Shown here: positions 4,261-37,198 of the stretch, in pieces
Position numbering within the stretch: the first letter of the stretch is position 1
Layout of the letters: every line of letters starts with the position of its first letter
Assembly: GCA_023266055.1 (NCBI GenBank)
Contig: JAHFRW010000004.1
Location: forward strand, 46,314-85,450
Source: Gammaproteobacteria bacterium
Lineage (GTDB): Bacteria; Pseudomonadota; Gammaproteobacteria; Ga0077554; Ga007554
Direction: 5' to 3'
DNA length: 39,137 nucleotides
Notes under the pieces: generated by a model
Database searches by the model: none
Told to the model about the DNA's origin: nothing
The model's input: only the letters and a program-made list of their open reading frames with translations
Made by a program: the position numbers and the translations under genes

Positions 4261-5064
4261 TCAGACCGTGGGCTTGATGGCTTCGATGGTGGCTGACACG
4301 ACATATTCGGCAATATCAGTTCCCGGTGCCCAATCGCGGATGAACGACTTGCTCTCGTCTTTTGGGATCACGCGAATTTGCGTAAATCCGCTCGCCCACA
4401 GCATTGCCTCAACGGAGGAAGCCATCGAAGCACCCGCCATGCAACCGGTATAAAGCGCCATATCCTGCTGAATCGCCACCGGCAATTCGGCAAAAGCCAC
4501 AACATCTGAAATGGCCAAGCGGCCACCCGGCCTCAACACCCGATAGGCTTCAGCAAAAACACGGGGCTTATCGGGTGACAGGTTGATGACGCAGTTCGAG
4601 ATAATGACGTCCACCACGCCATCTGCCACCGGCAAATGCTCGATTTCACCCAGACGGAATTCGACATTCCTGTAACCGCCCTGCGCCGCGTGGGTTCGCG
4701 CCCGGGATATCATTTCGGAAGTCATGTCCACTCCCATTACTTGACCCGTCTCACCCACCTGTCGTGCCGCGAGAAAGCAGTCAAAACCACCGCCGCTGCC
4801 CAGATCAAGCACCACCTCACCCGGTTGCAGTGCGGCAATGGCCTGCGGATTTCCACACCCCAACCCCATGTTGGCACCTTGCGGCACAGCACCGACCTCC
4901 TCCGCTGTATAGCCAAGCCCTTGGGATAGCGCTGCTACACTCGTCGTGGCCGTTGCGCTACAGCAGGCCGTACCGCAGCCACCACTTGCGCCATCATGCT
5001 CAGCCACACGACCATATTGCTGACGTACAGCCTGACGTATTTCGTCATGTTTCAAAGTGTCCAT
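4261..5064 (-). CDS. arsM: Arsenite S-adenosylmethionine methyltransferase
   Basis: Cytoplasmic SAM-dependent methyltransferase expected to methylate As(III). The Rossmann SAM loop is [17 protein letters not shown]. Four cysteine positions typical of ArsM/AS3MT can be seen: GCGTACC near the N-terminus, GLGCGNP just before the SAM loop, NCVINL in the middle, and TGCMAG near the C-terminus. The start at 5064 is chosen because AGGAG lies seven bases upstream; the frame stays open for 23 further codons but has no such site. It lies 89 bases downstream of a SigZ-type sigma factor on the same strand. No arsR or other ars gene is nearby, so the substrate is inferred from family motifs. Confidence 0.88.
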
Positions 5065-5153
5065 AAAATTGCTCCTGTCGTTCCGGGTTGCGACGCCTGT
5101 TGCGCCGTACCTATAGAGACGGAAGCCTGGCAAAAAAGATGCATGCCTTTATG

Positions 5154-5699
5154 TCAATCGCATTCATCATCACAACGCCTGTCCCGTGGCGTGTAATCAA
5201 TGACGCCACGCCGTCCGGTTTCGATGTCGCAACAATCGAGTAAACGCTGATGGAGTTTCGCTCTACCACGCTGAATCCTAGATTTTGCGTCAGAAAGAGA
5301 AATGCCCAAATGATCGGCTACCGCTTGCTGGGGTAAGCCCTGTATTTCAGAAAGCATCAGCGCAGAACGGTAAATTTCGGGCAAATCACCAAGCAGGGGC
5401 TGAATACAGGTTGCCAGTTCGGTAATATAGTCGCGTTCGGGTTCGGGCGCTGCCAGATCATCAGAAAGCTCAGCCCATGGCTTGCGCGATCGATAATGAT
5501 CAACGATCGCGTTCGCTGTAATGCGGAACAACCAGGCGGTGATGCTACCGTGGGATTTCACCGTATGCAGACTGGTATGCGCCTTGAGGAATACATCCTG
5601 GAGTATATCGTCTACTGCATCGCTCTCCCGCACACGTTTGGCAATGTAGTTGCGCAACCGGGTCTTGTGTTCCTGCCAGCAATCAAGTGTTGATATCAT
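5154..5699 (-). CDS. sigZ: SigZ-type ECF RNA polymerase sigma factor
   Basis: Group IV sigma factor that redirects RNA polymerase. Region 2 is visible as DAVDDILQDVFLKAH...ITAWLFRITANAIVDHYR and region 4 as LPEIYRSALMLSEIQGLPQQAVADHLGISLSDAKSRIQRGRAKL. The short C-terminal tail CCDIETGRRGVIDY followed by a Cys-rich end (CDDEC) is characteristic of the SigZ group and could bind a metal. No anti-sigma gene is adjacent on either side. The downstream arsM suggests a shared arsenic or stress response, but that is inference. Its first 17 bases overlap the end of a small upstream ORF. Confidence 0.85.
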   Translation of the reverse strand: MISTLDCWQEHKTRLRNYIAKRVRESDAVDDILQDVFLKAHTSLHTVKSHGSITAWLFRITANAIVDHYRSRKPWAELSDDLAAPEPERDYITELATCIQPLLGDLPEIYRSALMLSEIQGLPQQAVADHLGISLSDAKSRIQRGRAKLHQRLLDCCDIETGRRGVIDYTPRDRRCDDECD

Positions 5700-18873: not shown

Positions 18874-19188
18874 AAACATACTGTATTATGAATCTCACCT
18901 ATGCTCAATAAACCCACAGCCCTGCGGCACCCCCTATCTATTTTTATTCCTGAGTCAGCCTCCCACTAGAACACTGCTTGCAGAATCACCGTGCTTGCTT
19001 CCCTATTTATCTCTTTATTTTATGTGCCATGTATCCAACCTGTAACTTCCCAGAGCGTAGTCTGGATCATGTGGGGAATTTTGGCACGATACCACACACC
19101 GTCTCCACTAAATAAAGAACTCTAACCTTTTAGTGAATACGGTGAAATAAATGTGTCGGGTAATCATCACCAAAAAAGGAGTTTTATC
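18874..19188. other. Leader region of the RiPP operon
   Basis: About 315 bases from the hairpin to the precursor ATG with no credible ORF. It contains the 21-base motif shared with the protease promoter region (19027-19047) and ends in AAAGGAG seven bases before ATG 19189. No convincing -35/-10 pair was found, so control by an activator or an alternative sigma factor is possible. Confidence 0.4.
19027..19047 (+). promoter_or_regulatory. Shared upstream motif, copy 1
   Basis: CCATGTATCCAA followed by two variable bases and TGTAACT. The same motif occurs upstream of the serine protease gene at 24005-24025 with 19 of 21 identical bases. It ends about 141 bases before the precursor start. A regulator-binding site is inferred; no binding protein is known. 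Confidence 0.5.
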
Positions 19189-19419
19189 ATGACTGAAAAA
19201 GTACGTGGTTCCGATCAATTGAAACTGAATTGCTCCAGCTTTTCGGCCTTGACACAGGAGGAGCTGATGCAAGTCGCAGGCGGTCTGCACAGTGGGGGCG
19301 GTTTGTTTATGCGGCCTTTTCCACAAGGGATACCCTGGCCAGACCTGTTCATAAACCTGCCGCAGTTTAATCAGGTTAATCCAGTCATTAACGTCGGATT
19401 GACCAAGGGTGGATTTTAA
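19189..19419 (+). CDS. RiPP precursor peptide with double-glycine leader
   Basis: A 76-residue precursor. Residues 1-32 form a leader ending LTQEELMQVAGG, the classic double-glycine signal cut by C39 peptidases. The 44-residue core has no cysteine and is rich in aromatic-X-polar triplets: FMR (40-42), FPQ (44-46), WPD (50-52), FIN (54-56) and FNQ (60-62), with several prolines and a C-terminal TKGGF. Such triplets are the substrates of cyclophane-forming radical SAM enzymes. AAAGGAG lies seven bases before the ATG; an in-frame GTG at 19153 is an unlikely start. The maturase, adaptor and exporter genes follow on the same strand. Confidence 0.85.
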   Translation: MTEKVRGSDQLKLNCSSFSALTQEELMQVAGGLHSGGGLFMRPFPQGIPWPDLFINLPQFNQVNPVINVGLTKGGF

Positions 19420-19471
19420 ACTCACCGTAAGCTGCAACAAAATGTAATGCCTTGACCAGGAGGAAAACACC

Positions 19472-20554
19472 ATGAAATCGACAGAACAGACTCGCATTGT
19501 GCAGATACATCCGACACGTCGGTGTAATTTACGCTGTCGTCATTGCTATTCCTCCTCGTCACCTCAGGAGCGCGACATGCTTGATGCCGCGCTCCTTTTT
19601 GATGCCATCACGGACACTGCTGCTCTCGGCTACGACTGGGTCAGTTTTTCCGGTGGAGAACCCCTGCTCTATCGCCCCTTGCCGCAATTGCTGCGTCATA
19701 CCCAATCACTGGGCCTGCATACTGCCTTGGCTACCAATGGCATGCTCTTGAATGAGCGTCATTTAGATGCCATTACACCTTTCATTGATTTAATTGCCAT
19801 CAGTATCGACGGCATTCCTGAATCTCACAATAATATTCGTGCACATGAACATGCTTTTTCAAGCATGGCGTCAAATCTAGATAACCTGCGTGAGCGCGGC
19901 ATAAAGTTTGGATTTATTTTTACGCTCACCCAACACAACCTGCACGAACTCCAATGGGTCGCCGATTTTGCTCTCGATCAAGGCGCAAAATTGCTGCAAA
20001 TACACCCTCTGGATGAAGTTGGACACGCCATTGAACACATGATTGGTGAAACGCCCGATCATGTTGAAAGTGCTTACGCCTGGTTACTCGGCCAACAAAT
20101 TCAACGAACCTCTGAAGAACGCCTTGCCGTTCAGGTTGATTTGGTATTCAGTGATCACCTTAAAGCGTATCCGGAATTATTTTATGCGGGTGAAATGCTG
20201 CCAGAGGAAGACGTGTGCCTGGCTAATCTGTTATCACCACTAATAATAGAAGCCGATGGCACGGTCGTGCCATTGCAATATGGGTTCCCGCGCAATTATG
20301 CATTAGGTAACCTGGCCAGTACGCGCCTGCATACCATGGCGGATACCTGGCGAAAAAATACCAGGACATCATTCCACGCACTTTGCCGGGCCGCCTACGA
20401 ACAGGTGACAAATACGTCATCGTCACGTTTCGTCAGCTGGTACGATACTGTCGCCAGGTTAGGCCGGTCTTTATCCAGTCCAGCCATTGACTACCATAGC
20501 ATTCATGTACCGGTGCAACGACCCGTGTCTTTTATGCAGACAAATAACCGGTAA
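19472..20554 (+). CDS. Radical SAM peptide maturase
   Basis: A 360-residue radical SAM enzyme that probably modifies the upstream precursor. C18-x3-C22-x2-C25 (CNLRCRHC) binds the 4Fe-4S cluster; GGEPLLY (61-67) and the SID strand (111-113) complete the core. The C-terminal part has only Cys249 and Cys305 around an ADGTVVPLQYG...LGN segment, resembling a reduced SPASM/twitch domain. CAGGAGG lies eight bases before ATG 19472 and the stop is seven bases before the adaptor gene. Cyclophane (C-C) cross-linking is inferred from the core motifs; other carbon-carbon or epimerase chemistry is not excluded. Confidence 0.85.
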   Translation: MKSTEQTRIVQIHPTRRCNLRCRHCYSSSSPQERDMLDAALLFDAITDTAALGYDWVSFSGGEPLLYRPLPQLLRHTQSLGLHTALATNGMLLNERHLDAITPFIDLIAISIDGIPESHNNIRAHEHAFSSMASNLDNLRERGIKFGFIFTLTQHNLHELQWVADFALDQGAKLLQIHPLDEVGHAIEHMIGETPDHVESAYAWLLGQQIQRTSEERLAVQVDLVFSDHLKAYPELFYAGEMLPEEDVCLANLLSPLIIEADGTVVPLQYGFPRNYALGNLASTRLHTMADTWRKNTRTSFHALCRAAYEQVTNTSSSRFVSWYDTVARLGRSLSSPAIDYHSIHVPVQRPVSFMQTNNR

Positions 20555-20561
20555 CTGATTT

Positions 20562-21803
20562 ATGCGCACGGGTTTATTTCGCCAGGAGGTGTTACAACGG
20601 CCAGACAGCGCTGCCTTGGGGCAGGTAACGCTGACCACGCCCCCCTCTACAACACTCCTGATCATGGTTGCCACAGCCATTGCGATGATGTTGATCACAT
20701 TCGCGATATGGGGTGAATATACGCGCAAGGTTCATGTCACAGGATTTTTAGCGCCTGACAAAGGTCTCATCAAAGTATCGCCACCCATGGCAGGCACACT
20801 GATTGAAAAGCATGTCAAGGAAGGCCAGCAGGTAAAACAAGGCGATGTGCTATTCGTTCTCTCTACGGATCGTAGCACACCGATGATCACCAACACTCAG
20901 GTAGCGACGCTTCAACAACTGAACGAACGACGCAGCAGTTACGAATCTGAACGAGCCACGCAGCATAACATCGACAAGCTACAGCAAAACGGCTTGAAGG
21001 CGCGTATCGAGGCAAGCATTCATGAAATAGCGCTCCTCGATGCTGAACTGAAAACACAAACAACGCGTCTTGAAAGTGCGGAACAAACCGCCACCCGATT
21101 CGCTGAACTGGCCAGAAAACAATACATCCCCACTCTTCAGGCACAGCAAAAATACGAAGAAATGCTTGAACAGCGTGCGCGTCTTCAGGAAATGGAGCGG
21201 CGCCGTGCCAATCTTGTCGAGCAACGCACCACACTGAATGTCGAATTGGAATCCAGCGCATTGCGTGCCAGTGTACAACGTACTGAAATTGAACGTAATC
21301 TCGCCATACTGGAACAAGAACGCGTGGGTATGGAATCACAGCGGCTGGTGACCATTACCGCTCCCGCAGATGGGCAAGTCACGGCGATTGTTGCAGAGCA
21401 AGGGCAATATACACTGGCAGCCACACCGCTGCTGACGATCCTGCCAAAAGATGCAACCCTGCAGGCACAACTTCTAGTGCCAAGTCGGGCAATTGGATTC
21501 ATTGCACCCCAGCAAACTGTCGCCTTACGTTACCAGGCATTTCCTTATCAACATTTTGGCAATCATCCGGGCCGCGTAGTCGAAATATCAAAAACGCTGA
21601 TGGCGCCCACTGAAACCACTCTCGCCGTTCAGGAACCGGTATACCGTATCACCGTCGCCCTGGATGCGCAAACAGTGCGTGCCCAGGACAAAAATATGCC
21701 ACTGCAAGCGGGCATGTTGCTGGATGCGGATGTATGGCTGGAACGACGCTCTATCATTCAATGGATATTCGCCCCTCTTTACACCTTGAGCGGAAAGATC
21801 TGA
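20562..21803 (+). CDS. HlyD-family membrane fusion protein
   Basis: Periplasmic adaptor linking an inner-membrane ABC exporter to an outer-membrane channel. One transmembrane helix (TTLLIMVATAIAMMLITFAIWGEY, about residues 29-52) is followed by a lipoyl half-motif (GLIKVSPPMAGTLIEKHVKEGQQVKQGDVLFVL), long coiled-coil arms (about 110-250), the second lipoyl half (VTITAPADGQVTAIVAEQGQYTLAATPLLTILP) and a beta-barrel. 413 residues, normal for bacteriocin exporters. It starts seven bases after the maturase and ends two bases before the exporter start. No TolC-like gene is in the window. Confidence 0.93.
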   Translation: MRTGLFRQEVLQRPDSAALGQVTLTTPPSTTLLIMVATAIAMMLITFAIWGEYTRKVHVTGFLAPDKGLIKVSPPMAGTLIEKHVKEGQQVKQGDVLFVLSTDRSTPMITNTQVATLQQLNERRSSYESERATQHNIDKLQQNGLKARIEASIHEIALLDAELKTQTTRLESAEQTATRFAELARKQYIPTLQAQQKYEEMLEQRARLQEMERRRANLVEQRTTLNVELESSALRASVQRTEIERNLAILEQERVGMESQRLVTITAPADGQVTAIVAEQGQYTLAATPLLTILPKDATLQAQLLVPSRAIGFIAPQQTVALRYQAFPYQHFGNHPGRVVEISKTLMAPTETTLAVQEPVYRITVALDAQTVRAQDKNMPLQAGMLLDADVWLERRSIIQWIFAPLYTLSGKI

Positions 21804-21805
21804 AC

Positions 21806-23938
21806 ATGCAACTTAACACGACCTTGCAATTGGGCCTGCGTAAACGTATCCCCATCATTTTGCAAACGGAAACAACCGAATGTGGCGTTGCCTGCCTGGC
21901 AATGTGTGCCGCCTATTATGGACATAAAATTGATCTGGCCAGCTTACGCAATCGCTTTTCCGCCTCGCTACGCGGTACTACACTACAGGATCTTACCTGT
22001 ATCGCGGATTTTTTATCCCTGTCTTCCCGTCCGGTAAAGCTGGAATTAACTGACTTGAAAAAATTACACTGCCCGGCGATTCTACATTGGGATATGAATC
22101 ATTTTGTCGTGCTTGTTAAAGCACACTCAGATCACATCACAATTCACGACCCAGCCCATGGACGTCGTATTCTATCCATACAGGAAGTCTCTTCCCACTT
22201 CACGGGTGTAGCTCTGGAGCTATCACCCGATGAAGGTTTTGAACCACGATGTGAGCAACGTAGCATTTCCCTGCGACACCTGATTGGACGTTTACAAGGC
22301 TGGCAGAACGCGCTAACGAAAATCGTGGCATTGGCCTTTTCACTGGAAATTTTTGGCCTGGCCAGCCCGCTGTTCATGCAATGGGTCGTCGACAGCGCCA
22401 TTGTCTCAGCCGACAAGGATTTATTGACCGTACTTGCCGTGGGATTTTTATTGCTCGCCTTGATTCAGGTAGGCATGAGCGCACTACGCTCATGGTTATT
22501 GATGGCCTTGAGTGCGCAGCTTAATACTCAATTGATCGCCAGACTGTTCGGACATTTGCTGCAACTTCCCATCGGATTCTTCGTAAAACGTCATCTGGGT
22601 GATGTAGTATCACGTTTTGAGTCGTTAACTCAAATTCAACGCACGCTCACCGGCAGCTTTCTCGAAGCACTCATTGATGGCGTAATGGCCATTGCGATCC
22701 TGATCATGATGCTCATATACAGCCCCCTGCTAACGTTGATCGTCATCATCGCAGCGCTGTGCTATGGCACACTCCGCCTGATTTTCTATCGCCCATTGAG
22801 ACAGGCTGAAGAAGAACACATCGTGCGTGGTGCGAAGCAGCAATCCTATTTCCTGGAAAGCGTACGTGCCGTACAAAGCATCAAGTTACTCAATGGACAG
22901 CCGCAACGCCATACCCAATATCAGCACCTGACTGTTGACCATATGAATGCCGCCGTGCGTGTTCAACGCCTTGCCATCATGTTTAAGGCATTCAACGGCA
23001 GCCTGTTCGGAATTGAAAATATTGCAGTGATCTGGTTAGGTGCGAGCCTGGTCCTGGAAGGTGGATTTTCAATAGGTATGTTATTCGCCTTCATTGCCTA
23101 TAAACAAATTTTCATCACACGCATTGTCAGTGTCATCGAAAAAAGTGTGGAAATGACCATGCTGGGACTGCATGCCGAACGCGTAGCTGATATCGCACAA
23201 ACCGACCCTGAAAACTCCGGCCCCGGTGCCGGCCTGGGTACTGCCATTCCACAGCACTTTGATATCGAAATGCGCAATGTCGATTTTCGATACTCCACAA
23301 CTGACCCATACACATTACGTAATGTGAATATGCGCATCGAACAGGGGGAATCCGTGGCTATCATCGGCCCATCAGGATGCGGAAAAACCACGTTACTGAA
23401 ACTCATTCTTGGGATTTTCCCGCCGGATACCGGCGAGATATGTATCGGAGGAAGCAACATTCGACATTTGGATGCCAAACAGTATCGTTCTCTGGTAGGT
23501 ACTGTAATGCAGGACGATCACTTGCTCACTGGCTCTATCACTGACAACATCTGCTTCTTTGCGGAACATCCCGATCACGAACACATCATGCGTTGCGCGG
23601 CGCTTGCGGCAGTTCATGATGACATTCTCACCATGCCCATGGGTTATCACACCATGATTGGCGACATGGGTTCGGTGCTCTCTGGCGGACAAAAGCAACG
23701 TCTTCTATTGGCACGCGCCCTGTATAAACGTCCGCATATTCTGGTGCTCGACGAGGCGACCAGCCATCTCGATATCGCACGTGAAAAACACGTGAATCAT
23801 GCCATTCGCGATTTAAATCTCACCCGCATCATCGTCGCCCACCGCCCGGAAACTATTGCCAGCGCCGACCGTGTCATCGATCTGTCTGCCGCCAATACAA
23901 ACCCGACCAAGACGTATTCCGTGTGCTCGGCCGCTTGA
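21806..23938 (+). CDS. C39 peptidase-containing ABC exporter (PCAT)
   Basis: Cleaves the double-glycine leader and exports the mature peptide. The N-terminal C39 domain shows the catalytic Cys26 in TECGVACLAM, the oxyanion Gln20, the His in MNHFVVLVKA and the Asp in IHDPAHG. A six-helix membrane domain is followed by the ATPase: Walker A GPSGCGKTT, signature LSGGQKQR, Walker B ILVLDEATS and the His switch IVAHRPET. 710 residues, full length. The start at 21806 lies two bases after the adaptor stop; the upstream open frame overlaps the adaptor gene and is not family sequence. Confidence 0.95.
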   Translation: MQLNTTLQLGLRKRIPIILQTETTECGVACLAMCAAYYGHKIDLASLRNRFSASLRGTTLQDLTCIADFLSLSSRPVKLELTDLKKLHCPAILHWDMNHFVVLVKAHSDHITIHDPAHGRRILSIQEVSSHFTGVALELSPDEGFEPRCEQRSISLRHLIGRLQGWQNALTKIVALAFSLEIFGLASPLFMQWVVDSAIVSADKDLLTVLAVGFLLLALIQVGMSALRSWLLMALSAQLNTQLIARLFGHLLQLPIGFFVKRHLGDVVSRFESLTQIQRTLTGSFLEALIDGVMAIAILIMMLIYSPLLTLIVIIAALCYGTLRLIFYRPLRQAEEEHIVRGAKQQSYFLESVRAVQSIKLLNGQPQRHTQYQHLTVDHMNAAVRVQRLAIMFKAFNGSLFGIENIAVIWLGASLVLEGGFSIGMLFAFIAYKQIFITRIVSVIEKSVEMTMLGLHAERVADIAQTDPENSGPGAGLGTAIPQHFDIEMRNVDFRYSTTDPYTLRNVNMRIEQGESVAIIGPSGCGKTTLLKLILGIFPPDTGEICIGGSNIRHLDAKQYRSLVGTVMQDDHLLTGSITDNICFFAEHPDHEHIMRCAALAAVHDDILTMPMGYHTMIGDMGSVLSGGQKQRLLLARALYKRPHILVLDEATSHLDIAREKHVNHAIRDLNLTRIIVAHRPETIASADRVIDLSAANTNPTKTYSVCSAA

Positions 23939-24004: not shown

Positions 24005-24025
24005 CCATGTATCCAATATGTAACT
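24005..24025 (+). promoter_or_regulatory. Shared upstream motif, copy 2
   Basis: CCATGTATCCAA, two variable bases, then TGTAACT, matching the copy upstream of the RiPP precursor at 19 of 21 positions. It lies about 50 bases before the candidate -35 element of the protease gene, a typical place for an activator site. Confidence 0.5.
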
Positions 24026-24134: not shown

Positions 24135-25193
24135 ATGAAAAAGTCTGTATTGACTCATGCTGCGTTAGGAGTGGCAATGGTGTTTACCTTGACACTCAAC
24201 ACAGTCGTGCATGCCGCACCCCCAGGAGGAAAATTCACCAAACAACCCGTGGCAACCCAGTTTGATCGTTCATTGAACTATGTGCCACCGGAACAACTGC
24301 CGATAGTGGATAGAGCCGCAGGATTGAGCGAAATGGAAATGCGTCAGCGCATGACGGCCGTTGCTGTGACTCCGGAAGGAGAAACCTACCAGGCGGAAGT
24401 TACGGCGGAAGACATGGCAATCTTTGAAAATGCACTGTCTGAAATCTCGGAATCCTATCAGGGCAAAAAACGCGACACAAAAAAATCTCCTAGAAGAGGT
24501 GTTGCGCCGGAAGTCAATGCGACATCGAATGGTGTAAATGCGGAGTCCGTCATCGGCACCGATCAACGTGTGCAGGTGTTCTCCACTACGACTTATCCCT
24601 GGCGTGCCGTAGGACGGATCGCTGTCGGATGCACAGGTACGCTGATCGGCCCACGCCATGTTCTAACTGCGGGCCATTGCGTGTATAACATCGCAAACAA
24701 TCAGTGGTATTCCAACCTGAATTTCACTCCGGGGAAAAATGGCAACAGCAATCCTTATGGTACAATTGCCTGGTCATCTGCCATTACTACCACGGGCTGG
24801 ACCGTCAACCACGATCGCAATCATGACTATGCCATGATCATTCTGGGGTCGCACATCGGCAACACAGTCGGCTGGCTCGGTTATGGTTACAACAACAGCC
24901 TGCCGTACTATACCGTCAATATTAACGGTTATCCTGGTGACAAACCCTTCGGCACCCTGTGGCATTCGAACTGTACCTTGGCTATCATACAGACTTATCG
25001 CCTCTACTATCCTTGTGATACTTATAACGGCATGAGCGGCAGTGGTGTATACGCCTATTTTCCTGCCACCAGTTCACGTATCATTTATGGCATCCATGCC
25101 TATGGTGTCGACTCAACCGGATATAATGGTGCGACACGGATCACCTCGGATGTCTATAGCCGCCTCAATAACTGGATCAGCGCCAATCCCTAA
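24135..25193 (+). CDS. Secreted V8/trypsin-like serine protease with propeptide
   Basis: A 352-residue exported S1-fold protease resembling glutamyl endopeptidases. A signal peptide (about 1-27, ending VVHAA) is followed by a propeptide of about 100 residues ending in a basic stretch (KKRDTKKSPRR, 111-121), then the catalytic domain. Catalytic residues are His181 (LTAGHC), Asp231 (NHDYAMI) and Ser301 (GMSGSG); Cys166/Cys182 and Cys280/Cys294 are positioned as disulfides. GAAAAGGAG precedes the ATG, very like the site before the RiPP precursor. It follows the RiPP exporter by 196 bases and shares an upstream motif with that operon. Its target is unknown. Confidence 0.9.
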   Translation: MKKSVLTHAALGVAMVFTLTLNTVVHAAPPGGKFTKQPVATQFDRSLNYVPPEQLPIVDRAAGLSEMEMRQRMTAVAVTPEGETYQAEVTAEDMAIFENALSEISESYQGKKRDTKKSPRRGVAPEVNATSNGVNAESVIGTDQRVQVFSTTTYPWRAVGRIAVGCTGTLIGPRHVLTAGHCVYNIANNQWYSNLNFTPGKNGNSNPYGTIAWSSAITTTGWTVNHDRNHDYAMIILGSHIGNTVGWLGYGYNNSLPYYTVNINGYPGDKPFGTLWHSNCTLAIIQTYRLYYPCDTYNGMSGSGVYAYFPATSSRIIYGIHAYGVDSTGYNGATRITSDVYSRLNNWISANP

Positions 25194-25227
25194 TGATGCA
25201 GGGTACACTTAATTTTCCATGCCTCTC

Positions 25228-25257
25228 AACCGGGTTCTCATGGGCCCGGTTTTTTTT
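25228..25257 (+). terminator. Intrinsic terminator after the protease gene
   Basis: AACCGGG (25228-25234) pairs with CCCGGTT (25245-25251) around a 10-base loop and runs into eight Ts. It ends 34-64 bases after the protease stop. The next gene's longest possible frame runs through it, which argues that translation of that gene begins after the hairpin. Confidence 0.85.
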
Positions 25258-25258
25258 C

Positions 25259-26161
25259 ATGCAATCTGGGCGGTGGAGTATCTTTGTCCTCGGCATGTAT
25301 CTATCACTGCCTGTGTATGGAGGCGGAACGATGACGCTAAAGGAAATGTCGTTCGTGAATTACCCCCTTTTATCCAGTGCCAGTTTGCACACGCATACTG
25401 GCGCGGCCACACCCGTTTTGCGTTTGTCATTTGCGGCACAATTCGCCAATGCCTGCCTCGCTACGCAGGGTGTGATGGCACGGTACATCGATAGGTTTTC
25501 TGTCACTAATGCCCGCGATGGCTTACGCATCATTATGATTGAGCAAAATCCCTCTCCCGACGGCTGCCCTGAGATTTATCAGCCTCAGCAAAAAATGTTT
25601 TCCATCGACATGTCCAGAGATGCTCCCATCAAACAGATACTGCTGTTAAATTATTTCGCACCACAGCACACCTGGCAAAGTGACCATCAAATTACCATGT
25701 TGGCGGTTGACAGGGCGATTGCCCGCAAATCGCCAACCCAGCATCAACCACTCATCCTGCAACGCTTAGGTGCCACCACGACATTACTGGCATTATCGAA
25801 TATAACGATCAAATCTGATGTGGGAACGGCGTCCATGCCTCGTTATGTCATTGCCTTTGATGTTCACTTTGCCAATCGCTGTGAGGCCGATAATGGCATT
25901 GAGGTTCGGCTGATTGAAAGTCGCAGCAACCCAAGTGCACCAGCATCGCAAATGATGTACGACTGGCTGCTGGTGATGCAACGCAATGGTGCCACACGCT
26001 GCGATAAAACAGCACAACCATTCGCACGGCACTTTACGCTGCAACGCGACCTCCACCCCTATTACAAACGGCAATTGCTCGTGCTTAATCCTCTGACGCC
26101 AATGGCAACAACACCCACAAAACCCTTTCATGCATTGAATGTCTGGCCAGGCACATCTTAA
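25259..26161 (+). CDS. Exported protein with two tandem Cys-containing domains
   Basis: Unrecognised protein of about 300 residues. An N-terminal hydrophobic stretch (WSIFVLGMYLSLPVYG) suggests export. The rest contains two similar halves: one with VLRLSFAAQFANACLA...DGCPEIYQ...FSIDMSRDAPIKQILLLN, the other with YVIAFDVHFANRCEAD...TRCDKTAQ...FTLQRDLHPYYKRQLLVLN. Each half keeps an FAN-x-C cysteine and a second cysteine about 45-50 residues later. Three starts are possible: ATG 25193 overlapping the protease stop, ATG 25259 right after the terminator (chosen, keeps the signal), and ATG 25331, which has GGAGG seven bases upstream but no signal peptide. A protease inhibitor or partner is conceivable from position only. 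Confidence 0.65.
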   Translation: MQSGRWSIFVLGMYLSLPVYGGGTMTLKEMSFVNYPLLSSASLHTHTGAATPVLRLSFAAQFANACLATQGVMARYIDRFSVTNARDGLRIIMIEQNPSPDGCPEIYQPQQKMFSIDMSRDAPIKQILLLNYFAPQHTWQSDHQITMLAVDRAIARKSPTQHQPLILQRLGATTTLLALSNITIKSDVGTASMPRYVIAFDVHFANRCEADNGIEVRLIESRSNPSAPASQMMYDWLLVMQRNGATRCDKTAQPFARHFTLQRDLHPYYKRQLLVLNPLTPMATTPTKPFHALNVWPGTS

Positions 26162-36217: not shown

Positions 36218-37198
36218 GGCTCTAGTCTAATTGGTTAGTGACAAGATTATCACCTGCTGCCTGGGCCAAGAGCTGCAAGGGATTCAGCAAACCGCTGGTT
36301 GTCCGGTCGATGGCGCGGAACCAGCCCAGGTAACTTTCGAGATACTGAGTGGCCACACCATGGAAACGCTGCATCCAACTTTTTAACCGGGCGATGCGTG
36401 ATACCCATGTCTTTGGCCGCTGCTTTAAGGGCACGGGAGCCATCCGTACACAGCACGGCATCCTTGCTCAGGACGGGCTTCAGCGCCGCCGCGATATGGG
36501 CCGAATCATCGGCTTTCAACACGCAGTCCGTTGTGGTTCCAGAACGATCCCGGCTCACCAAGACAGGGGTTTGCTCGGTGGACAATCCGCGCTTCTTGGC
36601 CTTGCCTCCCCCGCTTGCGACCGATGCGCGGAAGGTTTTTAGACCCTTTGTGCGACTCAAGGAAGTACGTCTCATCGGATTCAACGATACCCACAAGGGC
36701 TTTAGCCTGAACGGTTTTAGGCAATTCAAGGAAGCGGTGACGCCAGCTAAAAGCGGCTTGATGCGATATATTCAGTTTCTCCGCCGCCTGTTTAAGCGGC
36801 AGTCCGTCTCGCAGCGCTTCGGCTTGGGCAACCCACTTGCCTTTCATGTGCAGCCGGGCCAGCGGTGTACCGGTCAGGGCGTTGAACGTCCTGGCACAGT
36901 CCCGGCACTTGAAGCGCTGCAAGCCGGATGCCGTGCCGTTCTTAACCATCGCTTTACTGCTGCAACACGGGCAGCATGGCTCTTCAGAGACGCCTTTCTC
37001 GATCAAGGCAATCGAAGAAACACGGCTTTCGCCCGCATTCAGTTCGATTGCCACCTGACGGCGTTGCAGCGGTGTCAGCCACTCCAGATTGGCGATCAAT
37101 TTCGTCAACTCGCGTTTGCGCATTTCCGCTCCTTTACCTGTTTCGACCCTCACCGGTCGCCTGATGAAATTGTATCACTAACCAATTAGACTAGAGCC
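36218..37198 (-). mobile_element. IS1595-family insertion sequence (ISXO2-type)
   Basis: A 981-bp element with perfect 24-bp terminal inverted repeats (36218-36241, beginning GGCTCTAGTCTAATTGG, and 37175-37198) and an 8-bp duplication TTATTTTA on both sides. It holds one transposase gene on the minus strand, broken by frameshifts. The family is assigned from the transposase: a Cys4 zinc-ribbon start and an ISXO2-type DDE region. It lies between wzy and the GT2 gene and supplies the present stop codon of wzy. Confidence 0.93.
36222..37123 (-). pseudogene. IS1595-type transposase, frameshifted
   Basis: Starts at ATG 37123 after AAAGGAG. The N-terminal zinc ribbon (CCPCCSSKAMVKNG...FKCRDCARTFNALTGTPLARLHMKGKW), a helix-turn-helix region and the first catalytic motif (VGIVESDETYF) are in one frame. 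An extra C in the run 36608-36612 shifts the frame; the second part (GGKAKKRGLSTEQTPV...LCTDGSRALKAAAKDMGITHRPV) is in frame two. Near 36392 it shifts again to LKSWMQRFHGVATQYLESYLGWFRAIDR, with a segment of about 20 residues apparently missing between HRPV and LKSWM. The transposase is therefore dead. Confidence 0.85.

Follow-up and report, generated by a model that had tools for sequence, protein, structure and literature searches.

The operon at positions 19189-23938 of the window (the whole stretch of 39,137 nucleotides analysed here) raises the question of what its radical SAM (rSAM) maturase does to the small precursor peptide encoded beside it. A first-pass annotation had proposed a three-residue cyclophane (triceptide-like) product, in which an aromatic ring in each of several core triplets bonds with the beta-carbon two residues further on. 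The genes, coordinates and gaps underlying this proposal were confirmed, and all checkable details of the sequence proved correct: precursor, maturase, HlyD adaptor and C39-peptidase ABC exporter form a single four-gene operon on the + strand (Table 1), with 52, 7 and 2 bases between the genes. Pfam matched the maturase to Radical_SAM (4e-23), the adaptor to HlyD_3 (1.3e-17) and the exporter to Peptidase_C39 (1.1e-37) together with ABC membrane and ATPase domains. The peptidase residues are intact, and with the ABC domains and the adaptor present the locus has the components of C39/HlyD peptide export. AAGGAG lies 5' of the precursor ATG and AGGAGG 5' of the maturase ATG, while a scan for sigma-70 promoters and terminators gave no clear excess over shuffled sequences.

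Table 1. Coordinates of the operon, the core motif, the repeated element and the adjoining genes in the window.
Feature	Position	Strand	Details
21-bp element CCATGTATCCAACCTGTAACT	19027..19047	+	Upstream of precursor; 11-bp-spaced TGTATC/TGTAAC pair
Precursor peptide, 76 aa	19189..19419	+	Leader 1-32 (..LTQEELMQVAGG), core 33-76; homologue alignment
Core motif FPQGIPWPDLF, residues 44-54	19318..19350	+	Alignment of five precursors
rSAM maturase, 360 aa	19472..20554	+	CxxxCxxC at 18-25; SPASM-like C-terminal domain without cluster cysteines (PLQYGF 267-272)
HlyD-type periplasmic adaptor, 413 aa	20562..21803	+	Pfam HlyD_3
C39-peptidase ABC exporter, 710 aa	21806..23938	+	Peptidase motifs ECG..ACL, HFVVL, HDP
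Second copy of 21-bp element (CCATGTATCCAATATGTAACT)	24005..24025	+	Upstream of protease gene
Secreted trypsin-like serine protease, 352 aa	24135..25193	+	Pfam Trypsin 2.7e-9; signal-peptide-like start
322-aa protein, no family match	25193..26161	+	Overlaps protease stop

The same arrangement was found in four other genomes of the same class, G314, G865, G943 and G922, the last two belonging to the genus of G865. Each carries one complete operon in the order precursor, maturase, HlyD, C39-ABC, so that a short precursor with a GG or GA leader adjoins a maturase and a C39 exporter in five operons from different genomes. The relatives' maturases are 46-58% identical to that of the window and group with it in one clade (support 100/98), and for three of the relatives the HlyD and ABC proteins show 37-60% identity to their window counterparts. 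Because all four of these additional operons are complete, share the gene order and have recognisable precursors, the locus is not a chance assembly; it is a real, rare RiPP family. The first-pass reading of an rSAM-modified RiPP with a double-glycine leader and C39/HlyD export is thus supported by Pfam and by the four additional operons. Its suspicion of a new subfamily was also borne out: this is a new subfamily of rSAM-modified RiPPs, as none of the best 25 NCBIfam matches of the maturase reached its cut-off or came near it (the best, NirJ, scored 105 bits where its cut-off is 515, and DynA 61 where it is 450).

The family is rare among the genomes sampled. Apart from the window genome itself, none of those searched from its genus and family carries the operon, and neither the relatives of G314 nor the family of the L009 genome yielded a further member in the genomes searched; the search of the G865 order covered the same 48 genomes as the family search that gave G943 and G922. 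No second such precursor was found in the window's own genome. A protein search of genome contigs returned generic rSAM relatives apart from one partial relative (54%), viral contigs gave generic rSAMs only, and the plasmids searched gave distant relatives only, one of them on a Mycolicibacterium plasmid. The partial relative is truncated where a Methylococcaceae contig begins (L009:2-1004). It diverges after approximately residue 225, a lone C39-type peptidase fragment comes next, and the locus looks rearranged or degraded. The nearest branches outside the maturase clade are a 313-aa enzyme in G744 and the enzyme on the Mycolicibacterium plasmid, pCBMA213_1. A 120-aa ORF (..VCKYGTCWDFEFKGP..) lies directly 5' of the former (L123:1124-2427), possibly forming a precursor-maturase pair with no exporter nearby, and a 118-aa ORF with GTVGPRGPHGPRPH lies 5' of the latter (L122:4542-6068). 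In G865 and G922, a second peptide with a GG/GA/GS leader is encoded directly 3' of the C39-ABC gene (L137:13149-13385, + strand, and L142:4211-4456, - strand); its core, RAQDM[YH]GNT[VI]SMEEYM...DFY.KGFN..KPNI, differs from that of the first precursor, and it was not found in the window or in the G314 and G943 stretches.

Alignment of the five precursors showed two conserved leader segments, RGS..L and LTxEExxQVxG[GA], and otherwise divergent cores whose conserved part is FPxG[IT]xxP[DE][LV]F, with diverging tails. Both Phe residues of the window motif, F44 and F54, are invariant. All five cores are free of Cys and hence of the Cys donors that would mark a sactipeptide or ranthipeptide, in line with the earlier view that thioether chemistry is unlikely for the 44-residue window core. 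The five triplets that had suggested cyclophanes (FMR, FPQ, WPD, FIN and FNQ) are all present in that core, where each of the five aromatics is followed by a polar residue at i+2 (p approximately 0.004 against shuffled cores). The G314 core is weakly enriched in the same way (5 of 6 aromatics, p 0.04). This enrichment, the two invariant Phe residues and the pairing of a Cys-free core with an rSAM maturase are what speak for a triceptide. In the more distant G865, G943 and G922 cores, however, there is no enrichment (p 0.62-0.88). Read in the order window, G314, G865, G943, G922, the aligned positions are FMR, WTS, WGP, WPR, WPN; FPQ, FPR, FPH, FPL, FPL; WPD, WPE, NPD, DPD, DPD; and FIN, FVQ, FTD, FRE, FRG, while FNQ is FAT in G314 and has no counterpart in the other three. 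Not one of the five triplets is kept as aromatic-X-polar in all five precursors, and the FRG of G922 offers no beta-carbon at residue 3 to bond. Homologues without conserved W/F-X-N/D/Q triplets had been named in the first-pass annotation as an outcome that would speak against its proposal, and this is largely what the five precursors show; the triceptide was dropped as first choice once the four homologous precursors had been found.

The maturase leads to a similar view. Of its five Cys (18, 22, 25, 249 and 305), only the first three, forming CxxxCxxC, are invariant across the five full-length maturases, in which GGEP is also kept. Cys249 and Cys305 had been noted as the only C-terminal cysteines, too few for a full SPASM enzyme. 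This is correct, and neither is conserved in the five: Cys249 occurs in the window maturase only, and Cys305 is shared with the closest homologue (2/5) and replaced by Ser in G865, G943 and G922. The G865 maturase has exactly three Cys in all. A remnant SPASM hairpin can still be recognised (I..DG.V.P....[YF].LGN), and the SPASM 'PC' position is taken by the invariant Leu of PLQYGF, part of an invariant VVPLQYGF stretch that is followed by FxxWY; in a profile alignment to an anaerobic sulfatase maturase, 'YPC' of that enzyme aligns with 'VPL' here. The rSAMs of the two neighbouring branches also lack the 'PC' Cys. PF13186 matched the C-terminal part weakly (E 0.14). The AlphaFold2 model, built on an alignment that is shallow for this five-operon family, retained the rSAM fold with a mean pLDDT of 75 and a poor C-terminal domain (approximately 35-78 by block), and its best PDB match was the RiPP maturase SkfB (TM 0.66). 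Since the cluster-ligand cysteines are replaced and only CxxxCxxC is conserved, the C-terminal domain appears to be a SPASM-derived fold from which the auxiliary clusters are absent.

Triceptide synthases have been found among SPASM rSAMs (PMC11002830), and the loss of the auxiliary-cluster cysteines in the present maturases argues against membership in that group. The models for XyeB, GrrM and FxsB, against which the first-pass annotation had wanted the enzyme compared, are not among its best 25 NCBIfam matches. These matches lie mostly in the N-terminal core, the C-terminal half alone matched no NCBIfam family, and the likeness to named cyclophane makers is confined to the shared rSAM core. 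The same core accounts for a PADLOC match to viperin, and a reading as a defence gene was dropped. Pfam, NCBIfam and fold searches did not identify an RRE domain. Judged from both precursor and enzyme, the triceptide reading fails defining tests; it is mostly not supported, and we regard it as quite improbable. A different oxidative outcome would be another type of cross-link, or an unsaturation, near FPxGxxxP[DE]LF, with a soluble electron acceptor in place of the auxiliary clusters. The SPASM descent of the C-terminal fold is consistent with this, and the invariant Phe, Pro and Gly and the conserved acidic residue could serve as reaction partners. In the SPASM peptide cross-linkers studied, however, auxiliary clusters are reported to be dispensable for SAM cleavage and essential for the modification, and a role as electron sink has been proposed for them (PMC8326336). 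As the present maturases have no conserved Cys to ligate such clusters, an oxidative cross-link seems unlikely.

A maturase without a built-in electron sink most likely performs redox-neutral hydrogen-atom chemistry. We therefore lean, with moderate confidence, towards a maturase that has a single cluster and a vestigial form of the SPASM fold and carries out such chemistry near the conserved motif, followed by C39 cleavage and export. The precursor would be bound through its conserved leader segments, and the enzyme, predicted to keep only the SAM-cleaving [4Fe-4S] cluster, would act at or near FPxG[IT]xxP[DE][LV]F, the predicted site of modification unless the motif serves binding or a receptor instead. 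Within this redox-neutral reading, Calpha epimerisation (L to D) is a tentative first guess, and radical decarboxylation, rearrangement or cleavage would be the alternatives. An external electron acceptor could also replace the auxiliary clusters, so that redox-neutrality need not be strict. In the C39 exporter family, the leader is removed after GG or GA and the peptide is exported by ABC-HlyD. The C39 domain here would cut after GG or GA in the same manner, and the core would leave through the ABC-HlyD conduit and a TolC-like partner encoded elsewhere.

A strict epimerase of the PoyD/EpeE type, with Cys305 as hydrogen donor, was the first choice as long as two maturases were known. The retention of Cys305 in the closest homologue and the aligned Cys in the enzymes of G744 and the Mycolicibacterium plasmid agree with it, and proteusin epimerases are RiPP enzymes with the rSAM cluster only and a critical catalytic Cys (PMC8326336). 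This candidate was dropped as first choice when three more maturases were found to have Ser at the position, although their precursors bear the same motif. The missing conserved Cys outside CxxxCxxC disfavours the standard epimerase mechanism for this maturase, and a Cys305-dependent enzyme is now very unlikely; with Cys305 set aside, some other residue, e.g. a Tyr, would need to act as hydrogen donor. The peptide could also be exported in the manner of a class II microcin, the rSAM step having been lost or directed at another substrate. The leader does match double-glycine bacteriocin models weakly (Pfam, NCBIfam), and the exporter is of the C39/HlyD type. As every one of the five operons has the maturase placed between its precursor and its exporter, and the enzyme retains CxxxCxxC and GGEP, this possibility is scarcely credible.

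A shared element, CCATGTATCCAAnnTGTAACT, occurs 5' of both the precursor (19027) and the gene for a trypsin-like protease (24005). None of 100 shuffled versions of the window matched the 21-bp element, and its inner pattern, with up to 2 mismatches allowed, occurs just twice in the 2.7 Mb genome, both times exactly and in the window. It is compatible with an activator box, the secreted protease is possibly co-regulated with the operon, and the 322-aa gene is probably on the same transcript as the protease. Such an arrangement suggests that the operon, the protease and the overlapping 322-aa gene make up a private regulon; duplication of an upstream stretch is the alternative explanation for the two copies. 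At the G314 locus the element is absent and no protease lies 3' of the exporter, so the link to the protease is local to the window genome. Elsewhere in the window, transposase-like reading frames overlap in different frames at 36250-37153 (an insertion-element remnant), and a SigZ-type sigma factor gene on the - strand adjoins a methyltransferase gene resembling arsenite methyltransferase at 4261-5699.

Auxiliary clusters are regarded as a hallmark of peptide-cross-linking rSAM maturases. A compact cluster-less family with a sharply defined target motif thus offers a clean test of the role of the SPASM fold and of the chemistry that survives the loss of the clusters. Its sequences make the ring-forming chemistry first proposed unlikely. 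They also hold a more general lesson, since the aromatic-X-polar triplets of a single precursor suggested cyclophanes, whereas four homologues show that the triplets are not the conserved feature. It is conceivable, though we put it forward tentatively, that the family represents a maturase type of its own, i.e. a SPASM-descended rSAM that has lost all auxiliary clusters, has no conserved Cys donor, introduces an undescribed redox-neutral change in FPxGxxxP[DE]LF and is here accompanied by a co-regulated secreted protease.

Compared with known systems, the operon resembles class II microcin export (C39-ABC plus HlyD) in leader type, C39 peptidase residues and adaptor, and differs in its added maturase and in that no immunity gene common to the five operons was recognised. 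The proteusin epimerases PoyD, OspD and PlpD are likewise RiPP maturases with the rSAM cluster only, but possess a catalytic Cys that is not conserved here and act on precursors with long nitrile-hydratase-like leaders. The epipeptide epimerase EpeE/YydG similarly acts on an exported peptide with a short leader, but has a second cluster and a catalytic Cys, and its profile match to the window maturase spans the N-terminal core only. With triceptide systems (XncB, OscB and MscB; XyeB/GrrM/FxsB), the family shares an rSAM adjoining a small precursor and an aromatic-rich, Cys-free core; the aromatic-X-polar triplets are similar in the window member but not conserved among its homologues, auxiliary-cluster cysteines are lacking, and the conserved motif is FPxGxxxP[DE]LF instead. 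The SPASM/twitch maturases SkfB, SuiB, PqqE and DynA share the overall fold and the hairpin of which a remnant persists here, and differ in that the auxiliary-cluster Cys of this hairpin has become an invariant Leu in the present family, in which the other SPASM cysteines are not conserved either.
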